A DNA stretch of 64,000 bases from Sacculina carcini (lineage: Eukaryota; Arthropoda; Thecostraca; Sacculinidae), in NCBI GenBank assembly GCA_916048095.2, contig OU696575.1, forward strand, positions 6,958,001 through 7,022,000, read 5' to 3'. Under the pieces are notes generated by a model. It did not search any database. It saw nothing but the letters and a program-made list of their open reading frames with translations, and was not told where the DNA came from. This document shows, in pieces, positions 13,434 through 24,421 of this stretch; position 1 is the first letter of the stretch; the number at the start of each line of letters is the position of its first letter. Made by a program: the position numbers and the translations under genes.

Positions 13434-13495
13434 TGTGTGTGTGTGTGTGTGTGTGTGTGTGTGTGTGTGTGTGTGTGTGTGTGTGTGTGTGTGTG
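13434..13495 (+). repeat. (GT)n microsatellite
   Basis: An uninterrupted GT tract of about 62 bases between the 5' end of LINE-A and the truncated 5' end of LINE-B copy 1. It is probably part of the original target tract. Confidence 0.9.
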
Positions 13496-14710
13496 CCGCC
13501 TTTAAGTTAGCCAACTCATTCATCTTTAGCAAAGTTCAGTATTGCTGTTCTCTTCTACTATCTCTCAACCACCGCCAGCTTAGGAAACTTCAATCTATTA
13601 TTAATAAGGCCAAAATCTATTATTAAAAATTGTCGTATGATATTTAATCTTCCTTCGGGCTCTCATGTTTCTTCTTCTTTACAAAAACTTAGGTTACTTC
13701 CCATTAAGGCTCTTGTTGAGTATCGTATTTAATTCATTCTAATTCGTTTAATTATTCATTTAGCTCTTCATCTTCGTAAGCCTGCGTATCTGTTTGACCT
13801 CCTCTCTTATAAAACCTTATCTATTTATCTTAGGTCTTCTAACGATCCTTTTCTACTAGTTGAACCATCCTTTCCTTCTAGGCATTCTCACTACAATCGT
13901 TGCTTCTCTATCTTAGGACCTCGTATCTACAACAGGCTATCTCCCTCAATACGCTCAATCAAACCTCTAACTCTTTTCAAAAAACATAGTAAAAATTTCT
14001 TTCTCACTAAGTCTTATTACTGTCTTTATAATATTGTATATATTAGTACTGAATATAAGGTCTGATTGTTTCCTAATTCTGTCTTCTATGTGTATGTGCT
14101 TCATGCGTATGTTTTCCGTTCTTGTGTCTGTATGTTTCTCCATTGTATGCTGTATGTGTGTTATGTTGAGCTCTGTTATCTGTGTTTGTGTGTCTGTTGT
14201 GTTGTGTTCTCTGTCTATTTGTTTGAGTGTATGTATTTGTGTGTCTGTTATGTTGTGTTTTCTGGTTTGTATTTGTGTCTCCATTATGTTGTGATTTGTC
14301 AATCTGAGTGTATGTCGTTGTATGCTTGCTGTGTTGTCTTAATGTGTTGTATGTTGTGTTGTCTTCTGTGCTGTATGTCTGCTGTGCTATCTTATTCAAT
14401 ATGTATGTGTGTGTGTGTGTGTGTGTGTATGTGTGTGTATTTTTGTGTCTGAGTATGTAAACAGAGTGTATGTTTGTGTTTGTGTGCATATGTACTTGTC
14501 TGTTTTGTGTGTGTGTGTGTGTGTGTGTGTGTATGTGTGTGTGTGTAGGTGAGTGTGTGTGTTCGTGATTGTGTATGTGTATGACTCTTGTGCTTGAGTG
14601 TGTGTGTGTGTGTGTGTGTGTGTGTGTGTGTGCGTGTGTGTGTGTGTGTGAGAGCGCTTTTGAGACCTTCGGGTGAAAAACGCGATATAAATGTCTTAAT
14701 GTAATTTAAT
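13496..14710 (+). mobile_element. LINE-B copy 1, 5'-truncated
   Basis: It begins abruptly at the first base after (GT)n, at a point matching 22,981 of copy 2 (CCTTTAAGTTAGC). It keeps the RT C-terminal region (FIFSKVQYCCSLLLSLNHRQ) with stops near 13,625 and 13,730. The T/G-rich 3' leader follows. The 3' end has a GCGCTTTT...AAAACGC-type hairpin (14,654-14,683) and the tail ATATAAATGTCTTAATGTAA, followed at once by (GT)n. Confidence 0.75.
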
Positions 14711-14787
14711 GTGTGTGTGTGTGTGTGTGTGTGCGTGTGTGTGTGTGTGCGTGTGTGTGTGTGTGTGTGTGTGTGTGTGTGCGTGTG
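14711..14787 (+). repeat. (GT)n microsatellite between two LINE-B copies
   Basis: About 75 bases of GT with a few GC changes. It separates the 3' end of LINE-B copy 1 from the 5'-truncated start of copy 2. Confidence 0.85.
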
Positions 14788-21446: not shown

Positions 21447-23514
21447 TGAATGTTTCGTTCATATGCCACCTAATTCTCTCTTAGGATACTTCAACTCATC
21501 CCTCGATTCTCTCAAATCAACCTTTATTCCTGTTAAAGTCTTCCGTTCCACTAATACTCGCTGTCCTTGGTTTAACACTGATATTAGATATTCAAAAACA
21601 TCCCTGCGTCGTCTTGAACGTCAATGGCGTCGTCTCAGGACTGGCTCTTCGTGGCAATCTTTCTGTTCTGCCCGCCGTCATCATCATCTTCTTTGTGATT
21701 CCGCCAAAAAATATTACTATAATTCTAAAATTTCTTCCTGTCTCAATTCTAAGAAACTTTGGAAGCTTTTTGACAGTATTTTAGGTAATTCCCGTAGTCT
21801 TGTTTTCCCAGATTCTGCTTCTGATCAGTTACCTTCCATATTTATGAATTTCTTCCAGTCTAAAATCGATAAGATTCGCTGCTTGTTCCCGGCTGCTCTA
21901 CCATTATACTCTCCGCCCTTACCCTCCTCTGTTATTCACTCTTTTACTTTAGTTACCCTTTCTGACTGTAGAACTATTTTAAGGCATGTTAAAATCCATT
22001 CTTCATCTCTCGACCCCATTGATCTTTCCAGGATTCCTCACTCCATTGAATTGCTCCTTCCTTTCTTAGCTAATTTCATCAATGCTTCTTTCACTCTTGG
22101 GGAATTTCTTGCATCTAAAACTGCCAGCATTCTCCCTATACTTAAGAAATCTGGTCTGGAGGCTAACACGCTTTCTAACTATCGACCAATCTCTAGAATT
22201 CCTTGGCTGTCTACGGTTCTCGAAATGGCTGCCTACATACAGATATCTAAATATCTTGAATCTAACAATTTGTTTCTTCCTGAGCAGTCTGGCTTCCGGC
22301 ACTTTCACTCTACTGAAACTTCTCTAATTTTTCTCTATGATTCTATTCTCAAATCTACTCTCTCTGGTAATGATGTTCTACTTATACAACTAGACTTCTC
22401 TGCTGCATTTGACACTGTTAATCATCTGCTTCTTATTGATACTCTGTTAGATTTAGGCATTAGCGGTACAGCTCTCTCTTTCTTTCGCTCTTATCTTTCT
22501 GATAGACTTCAGTTTGTTTCTACCTCTGCTGATTCTTGTAGTGAGGCTTGCCCACTAACTTGTGGTGTACCTCAAGGCTCTGTCTTAGGCCCTCTCCTCT
22601 TCAATATGTATCTTACCTATGTAGGGAAAGTTCTTCGTCGTCACGATGTGTCCTTCCAAATATTCGCTGACGACATTCAAATCCTTCTCTCGTCTGAGTC
22701 TATTTCTCACTCTTCAGTCAGTACCATCCTATCTGATATAGAAAGATGGGCCTTCACTCGTCATCTCAAACTTAATCCTGATAAGACTAAGTATATTCTC
22801 TTTCCATCTTCTAATAGTACTACTTCTCTTAGTATACCTCTATCCTGCTCTGTACGTAGTCTTGGTATCATACTCGATAACTATCTTTCTTTTGATCCAC
22901 ACATATCTGACATTATCAGGTGCTGTAACTATCAACTTAGGCGTATCTATTCCATTCGTAGATATATAACCATCTCTGCTGCCTTTAAGTTAGCTAATTC
23001 ATTCATCTTTAGTAAAACTCAGTACTGCTGTTCTCTTCTACTATCTCTCAACCACCGCCAGCTTAGGAAACTTCAATCTATTATTAATAAAGCTTGTCGT
23101 ATGATATTTAATCTTCCTTCGGGTTCTCATGTATCTTCTTCTTTACAAAAACTTAGGTTACTTCCCATTAAGGCTCTTGTTGAGTATCGTATTTGTTTAA
23201 TTATTCATTCAGCTCTTCATCTTCGTAAGCCTGCGTATCTGTTTGACCTTCTGTCTTATAAAACCTCATCTCTTTCTCTTAGGTCTTCTAACGATCCTTT
23301 TCTACTAGTTGAACCTTCCTTTCCTTCTAGGCATTCTCACTACAATCGTTGTTTCTCTATCTTAGGACCTCGTATCTACAATAGGCTTTCTCCCTCAATA
23401 CGCTCAATCAAATCTCTATCTCTTTTCAAAAAACATACTAAAAATTTATTTCTCACTAAGTCTTATTACTGTCTTAATAATATTGTATATATTAGTACTG
23501 AATATAAGGTCTGA
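21447..23514 (+). pseudogene. LINE-B copy 2, 3' part: reverse transcriptase
   Basis: It continues the LINE-B ORF2 after the I-clade insertion; in-frame ATG at 21,463, 683 codons open to 23,514. Linker (ARRHHHLLCDSAKK), RT blocks NYRPISRIPW, LDFSAAFDTVNH, CGVPQGSVLGPLLF and catalytic IFADDIQ, then a C-terminal domain with FIFSKTQYCCSLLLSLNHRQ. The RT part itself is intact; the gene is broken by the insertion and by the frameshift near 15,275. CR1/L2-type, no RNase H. Confidence 0.85.
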
Positions 23515-24130
23515 TTGTTTCCTAATTCTGTCTTCTATGTGTATGTGCTTCATGCGTGTGTCTTCTGTTCTTGTGTCTGTATGTTTCTCCATTGTATGCT
23601 GTATGTGTGTTGTTGTGTTGAGCTCTGTTATCTGTGTTTGTGTGTCTGTTGTGTTGTGTTCTCTGTCTATTTGTTTGAGTGTATGTCTTTGTGTGTCTGA
23701 TATGTTGTGTTTTCTGGTTTGTATTTGTGTGTCAATTGTGTTGTGATTTGTCAATCTGAGTGTATGTCGTTGTATGCCTGTTGTGTTGTATGTTGTGTTG
23801 TCTTCTGTGCTGTATGTCGGCTTTGATATCTTATTCAATATGTATGTGTGTGTGTGCGTGTGCATTTTTGTGATTTTGAGTATGTAAACGTGAGTGTATG
23901 TTCGTGATTGTGCGCATATGTACTTGTCTATATGTCTGATATATGTCTGTTTTGTGTGTGTGTGTATGTATGTAGGTGAGTGTGTGTGTTCGTGATTGTG
24001 TATGTGTATGACTTTTGTGCTTGTGTGTGTGTGTGTGTATGTTGTGTATGTTGTGTGTGTGTGTGTGTGTGAGCGCTTTTGAGACCCTCGGGTGAAAAGC
24101 GCGATATAAATGTCTTAATGTAATGTAATG
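23515..24130 (+). mobile_element. LINE-B copy 2 3' untranslated region
   Basis: A T/G-rich region of TGTGTCTGTTGTG-type sequence, also present in copy 1 (14,060-14,650). It ends with a perfect 8-bp stem hairpin GCGCTTTT...AAAAGCGC at 24,073-24,102 and GATATAAATGTCTTAATG plus TAATG repeats. In LINEs of this group such a 3' hairpin is the usual recognition site for reverse transcription. Confidence 0.7.
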
Positions 24131-24421
24131 TGTGTGTGTGTGTGTGTTTGTGTATGTGTATGTGTATGTGTATGTGTGTGTGTGTGTGTGTGTGTGTGTG
24201 TGTGTGTGTGTGTGTGTGTGTGTGTGTGTGTATGTGTGTGTATGTGTATGTGTATGTGTGTGTGTGTGTGTGTGTGTGTGTGTGTGTGTGTGTGTGTGTG
24301 TGTGTGTGTGTGTGTGTATGTGTGTGTGTGTGTGTGTGTGTGTGTGTGTGTGTGTGTGTGTGTGTGTGTGTGTGTGTGTGTGTGTGTGTGTGTGTGTGTG
24401 TGTGTGTGTGTGTGTGTGTGT
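24131..24421 (+). repeat. Long (GT)n microsatellite
   Basis: About 290 bases of GT with scattered TATG and TTTG variants, between the LINE-B 3' end and the Helitron head remainder. It produces Val-Cys and Thr-His frames on both strands that are not genes. Confidence 0.95.

Follow-up and report, generated by a model that had tools for sequence, protein, structure and literature searches.

Do the copies of a retrotransposon that border on (GT)n microsatellites lie there because the element selects these repeats as its target, or could such junctions be made by the element itself, by recombination or by chance? This question is raised by a window of 64,000 nucleotides from the genome of Sacculina carcini (Arthropoda, Thecostraca; contig OU696575.1, positions 6,958,001 to 7,022,000), which harbours copies of a long interspersed nuclear element (LINE) here referred to as LINE-B. 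Target specificity is relaxed in most LINEs that carry an apurinic/apyrimidinic (AP) endonuclease (Metcalfe and Casane, PMC4120745). An earlier note on this window, made from the sequence alone, had proposed that LINE-B inserts into GT repeats with 5' truncation. We regard it as highly probable that LINE-B is a recently active retrotransposon of the type lacking long terminal repeats (non-LTR), which uses target-primed reverse transcription to insert into (GT)n, with a nick in the (AC)n strand. Full-length as well as truncated copies have GT on both sides and in a single orientation, the copies closely resemble each other, and one nested copy occupies a site that is also known in its empty state.

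The starting observation concerned three copies beginning at the edge of GT tracts (at 13,496, 14,788 and 62,707) and two TAATG tails that pass into GT. The coordinates proved right when checked against the sequence, and both tail transitions were seen, at 14,711 into a TG-rich tract and at 24,131 into (GT)n. The first two copies belong to one family, with 89% identity across ~1.2 kb. The third does not: it has 66% nucleotide identity to LINE-B (374 columns) and 58% amino-acid identity (124 residues), and is, judged by these values, a relative of LINE-B that forms a separate family. Within the window (GT)4 is present in 26 of 1,066 tiles of 60 bp, so that the junctions at GT edges exceed chance expectation.

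For the genome at large, 3' flanks were taken without regard to their content from loci L009-L058 (the first half of the 100 matches listed, all exact and on contigs C1 and C2) and L061-L078 (18 of the 40 matches of the reverse transcriptase, RT), and were scored for (GT)4 or (AC)4 within 60 bp; L062, where no core was found, and L071, which is all N, remained unscored. (GT)4 occurred in 62 of the 71 scored flanks, in 57/66 (86%) without the repeated satellite loci L021-L025, and in 52/61 (p = 7e-35) once all rows with identical 110-bp flanks are removed. The last set drops ten such rows, five of which (L032, L040, L066, L069, L070) represent separate places with long pure GT. (AC)4 was found within 60 bp 3' of the LINE-B core in none of the 71. 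The share of GT thus lies above the roughly 80% in one orientation that the earlier note had set in advance as support for targeting. In the nearby background (windows 500-1500 bp downstream) GT and AC are equally frequent, with 50/490 and 52/490 respectively, and against this symmetry the GT beside LINE-B stands, in the copies examined, in one orientation only. Similarly, a perfect (GT)6 lies 6-36 nt past 325 of 544 exact cores on the forward strand genome-wide, and (CA)6 past 0/544; the reverse-strand count (1,784) was left out, one core being counted many times. This proportion (60%) is below the sampled rate because the stricter (GT)6 pattern misses imperfect tracts. As a control we used the LINE that has split the second window copy, the 3' end of which has 208 matches. 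Only one of the 20 fetched has (GT)4 within 60 bp, at L106, where the tract lies away from the junction; at the other control 3' ends an ACGA-type tail gives way directly to sequence that differs from place to place. Most LINE-B insertions therefore lie in one simple repeat and in one orientation, which is the hallmark of a microsatellite-targeting element.

The 5' junctions agree with this picture. A motif of the LINE-B 5' end occurs at 124 places, 20 of which were fetched as full-length 5' ends. (GT)4 is found just upstream of 19 of these 20, and in 16 the tract lies within ~8 nt of the element (gap <=22 nt to the motif). Among 21 copies examined whose truncation falls within the coding part, 20 are readable (L052 has N on its 5' side); the 5' junction of L045 was added by hand to this set as a negative, and L047 and L058 were excluded with boundaries inside the GT-rich 3' untranslated region (UTR). 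(GT)4 occurs within 60 bp upstream of 17 of the 20, compared with 13/138 upstream windows (p = 4e-12), as insertion into GT with 5' truncation would have it. Moreover, locus L054 shows one LINE-B nested in another: a copy truncated at reference position 553 sits in the 3' UTR of the host copy and is bordered there by a GT tract on one side and by TATGTAGGTGAG on the other. The known empty site is represented by copies that lack this insertion, e.g. the second one of the window, in which the same GT tract stands without it. Both the GT flanks on the 5' side and the nested case place the repeat at the site before insertion.

These 5' data also bear on the possibility, already named in the earlier note, that the element makes its own GT: RT would slip on the TG-containing tail or on GU in readthrough RNA and add (GT)n 3' at random sites. 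Slippage of this kind has been proposed for simple sequence repeats at the 3' ends of RTE elements in Lepidoptera, and microsatellites made by LINEs are on record (PMC2887409). The LINE-B 3' UTR is indeed TG-rich, the tail unit contains TG, and some growth of the 3' tracts by slippage is possible. As the origin of the pattern we consider it very improbable, since it leaves unexplained both the GT ahead of 19/20 full-length and 17/20 variously truncated 5' ends and the nested L054 copy in a pre-existing tract. Slightly less probable still is recombination or repair between GT tracts inside LINE-B and GT elsewhere, in place of targeted retrotransposition. GT tracts do occur within LINE-B 3' UTRs, and some copies form chains with GT between them (window 13434-24421; L047, L054), so that such exchange may shape some arrays; full-length copies and coding copies cut at varied points without GT would nevertheless require a non-GT breakpoint on the element side every time, which contradicts it. 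Finally, GT could be so frequent that many elements adjoin it by chance, there being 975,550 overlapping (GT)10 matches on two strands and (GT)4 in ~10% of nearby 60-bp windows. This we regard as practically negligible in view of 86% against 10%, of a GT to AC ratio of 57 to 0 against a symmetric 50 to 52 nearby, and of 1/20 in the unrelated control LINE.

Several observations weigh against insertion targeted to GT. Nine of the 66 3' flanks are without (GT)4; several of them carry short or broken TG runs, and L029 and L041 have none. On the 5' side, L092 has (TTTG)n upstream, 16-20 nt of other sequence separate tract and element at L079, L087 and L094, and non-GT junctions occur at L020-L025 (a satellite family, counted as one event), at L035 and at L045, where the 5' end abuts an inverted tail. 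The evidence from empty sites consists of a single nested case within this genome, target-site duplications are not discernible inside GT, and the control LINE was scored at its 3' ends only. With regard to two of these places, the LINE-B 5' end at L045:1940-2080 adjoins an inverted CATTACATTACATTAC tail, as left by 5' inversion, and L020-L025 are six loci of contig C1 with common LINE-B junctions and flanks, as if their truncated LINE-B had become part of a dispersed satellite.

How LINE-B would reach these tracts can be outlined as follows. A nick in the AC strand would account for sense-strand GT at both ends of the element. Such a nick would leave a 3' end (...CACA-3') able to pair with the UG at the head of (UGUAA)n, the tail unit of the RNA, whose 3' stem-loop would meanwhile be held by the endonuclease-RT protein. 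Synthesis of complementary DNA would start at the paired tail and often stop early, which would yield 5' truncation, and second-strand joining would leave GT ahead of the 5' end. The site could be chosen either by an endonuclease reading GT/AC or by pairing of tail and primer after a looser nick. Among 81 flanks examined of LINE-B and of a further family, D, the junction (marked by a slash) reads GTAA/TGTGTG in 54 and TGTA/TGTGTG in 6, and (GT)3 is absent in 4; this pattern agrees with CA-3' acting as primer on the tail-unit UG, but is no proof of it. The linker between endonuclease and RT probably binds the tail, to go by its PW-x15-E-xx-W motif and by work on zebrafish elements (PMC4176376). 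Because the 3' UTR of LINE-B itself holds GT tracts, each insertion adds landing sites.

LINE-B is ~5.3 kb long (its 5' part from locus L059 and its 3' part from the window summed) and has a 5' end that reads TTCACTCTTG, followed by a first open reading frame (ORF1; 425 codons in L059), an AP-type endonuclease and an RT. After these come a 3' UTR rich in GT, a stem-loop, and a tail of (TAATG)n, which equals (TGTAA)n. Both domains of an AP-endonuclease non-LTR retrotransposon were matched, the endonuclease by PF03372 (E 2.2e-07, 31.3 bits against a cut-off of 24.5) and the RT by PF00078 (RVT_1, E 1e-30). The endonuclease frame is broken in 2/2 copies inspected, and this part had no match in PDB; the RT scores nearer to human L1 ORF2p than to R2, in a PDB set of L1 and R2 only. 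The 3' core of LINE-B was matched at 1,578 places in 264 Mb (<=3 mismatches). Of 1,725 first-look candidates in a DNA search with the RT, the 40 scored and listed, the window copy among them, are 97-100% identical, and 20 RT fragments of ~300 bp show 96.0-99.7% identity to their nearest neighbours. On this similarity between copies, LINE-B is therefore a young family. Family D has a stem-loop of the same shape as that of LINE-B, in which, by our comparison, three pairs show compensatory changes; LINE-B copy 1 (14653-14711) lacks this fold (z -1.02). Rfam yielded no LINE 3' element in 23950-24140, even with E values up to 5 admitted, and no match at gathering level anywhere in the window. ORF1 has a weak match to MLL PHD3 (E 0.015), a match to Pfam C1_1 below cut-off and three CCHC knuckles read by eye. 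A single-sequence structure model of it (mean pLDDT 43.1) was too poor to support RNA-recognition motifs (RRM), and a fold search with this model gave no match at E <=0.001. Type IC ORF1 proteins comprise a PHD, two RRM and three CCHC knuckles, and occur in L2 subgroup 2 and CR1 subgroup 3 (PMC4120745); LINE-B ORF1 may be of this type.

Support for the label CR1/L2-like, given to LINE-B in the earlier note, is only indirect: the layout of ORF1, the motif for tail binding and the tail itself suggest that the element is nearer to L2/CR1, and the latter two point to L2 rather than to R1, the clade of Mino. In L2 elements tail binding involves a conserved Pro-Trp, a Glu and a Trp, i.e. positions 324, 325, 341 and 344 of ZfL2-2 (PMC4176376). 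The corresponding stretch of LINE-B, PWFNTDIRYSKTSLRRLERQW, has exactly this spacing, which, like the stem-loop followed by a short tandem-repeat tail, fits the L2 clade. The 3' end of UnaL2 consists of TGTAA repeats (PMC3747384). LINE-B shares the TGTAA-type tail, the 3' stem-loop and the PW-x15-E-xx-W spacing with UnaL2, ZfL2-1 and ZfL2-2, and differs from them in its GT targeting, which the excerpts of these sources do not report for any of the three. Our search of the open-access literature likewise found no L2/CR1 LINE that targets GT.

Among LINEs that target microsatellites are Waldo (R1 clade, ACAY repeats) and Kibi and Koshi (Tx1 clade), whose clades and repeats differ from those of LINE-B. 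Closer in target are Togen and Mino. Togen of fish shares with LINE-B the (TG)n-specific insertion, and yet it is described as related to NeSL, among the families with a restriction-like endonuclease (PMC4640811), in contrast to the AP-type of LINE-B (PF03372). Mino inserts into AC repeats (PMC3124438) and has in common with LINE-B the AC/GT dinucleotide target and, as an R1 element, an AP-type endonuclease (PMC3124438, PMC4640811); by their descriptions the two are set apart by features of LINE-B, i.e. its possibly PHD-like ORF1, its 3' stem-loop with (TGTAA)n tail and its tail-binding motif of L2 type. SaTar elements of guayule and rice also build arrays by microsatellite targeting, but are non-autonomous Mu-like DNA transposons (PMC5907723), not LINEs. 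GT targeting is thus already known in other retrotransposon lineages.

LINE-B is not the only family associated with GT in this genome. Scored at their 3' flanks, family D (1,258 places) has GT in 19/20 and family C (186 places) in 7/8 of those fetched, and the relative at 62,707 starts at a GT edge on its 5' side. Family E, a LINE on the minus strand from 9214 (window 9121-9232), ends in antisense at a (TG)46 tract. Its 3' ends occur at 445 places genome-wide, 105 of which are directly followed by ACACACAC (<=1 mismatch each); family E may thus share these tracts, read on the opposite strand, or may possess an AC tail of its own. Ends of family E also lie within the flanks of L011, L064 and L124.

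At L042 (6083-6223) LINE-B is followed by GT, GTGCAG and an exon, the 47-residue translation of which matches the catalytic subunit of DNA polymerase zeta (E 2.6e-11), and the copy is, as read from this match, an intron insertion just ahead of an acceptor of that gene. Further acceptor-like flanks were seen at L012, L131, L133, L140 and L142-L145. Splice-acceptor-like YAG within 14 nt past the tract is not enriched overall, with 24/80 against ~31% by chance (our estimate for 14-nt stretches); in family C it occurs in 6/7 flanks carrying a tract, a small sample. Tentatively, and with rather less than even confidence, one might see in B, D, C and the 62,707 relative an L2/CR1-like group specialised on (GT)n, whose own 3' UTR GT makes landing sites and to which E adds the use of the opposite strand. 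The niche of this group would partly be intron ends, because GT tracts here can sit just ahead of 3' splice sites, with entry in gene sense.

The features of the window are compiled in the table. LINE-B copy 2 is interrupted by an unrelated minus-strand LINE (15569-21446), whose target-site duplication of 14 bp (15555-15568 and 21447-21460) is not GT and which has more copies of its parts at 2592-7054. From 63078 onward, sequence that by eye resembles an LTR retrotransposon and a downstream coding region interrupts the 62,707 copy. Beyond the GT tract of three LINE-B copies (window 24429-24500, L034, L073) lies one and the same repeat, CCTTGGTCCAT...; this GT-bearing repeat may be a frequent landing site of LINE-B.

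Table. Positions of LINE-B, its relative and the adjoining GT tracts in the window.
Feature	Position	Strand	Basis
(TG)31 tract, 5' flank of LINE-B copy 1	13434..13495	+	sequence
LINE-B copy 1, 5'-truncated in C-terminal part of RT; GT-rich 3' UTR, TAATG tail	13496..14710	+	89% identity to 22981-24129
TG-rich tract linking LINE-B copies 1 and 2	14711..14787	+	sequence
LINE-B copy 2, endonuclease part, 5'-truncated, frame broken	14788..15568	+	Pfam PF03372 E 2.2e-07 (14789-15280)
LINE-B copy 2 resumed: linker, RT (open from 21448), GT-rich 3' UTR, TAATG tail	21447..24130	+	Pfam RVT_1 E 1e-30
PW-x15-E-xx-W motif, between endonuclease and RT of LINE-B	21565..21627	+	spacing as in L2-clade tail-binding residues (PMC4176376)
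LINE-B 3' stem-loop ahead of tail	24073..24102	+	fold -15.4 kcal/mol (24071-24131), z -2.24
(GT)n tract, 3' flank of LINE-B copy 2	24131..24421 (end approximate)	+	sequence
(TG)n tract, 5' flank of LINE-B relative	62565..62706	+	sequence
Copy of family related to LINE-B, cut at ~63,078 by LTR-like sequence	62707..63077	+	58% amino-acid identity

If LINE-B inserts as proposed here, specificity for a strict dinucleotide target would have been gained independently in a young, abundant L2/CR1-like family, within a lineage whose recognition of the 3' tail is well studied. The choice of the site by the endonuclease or by pairing of tail and primer would become testable, and the spread of the retrotransposon would be tied to the microsatellite content of the genome.

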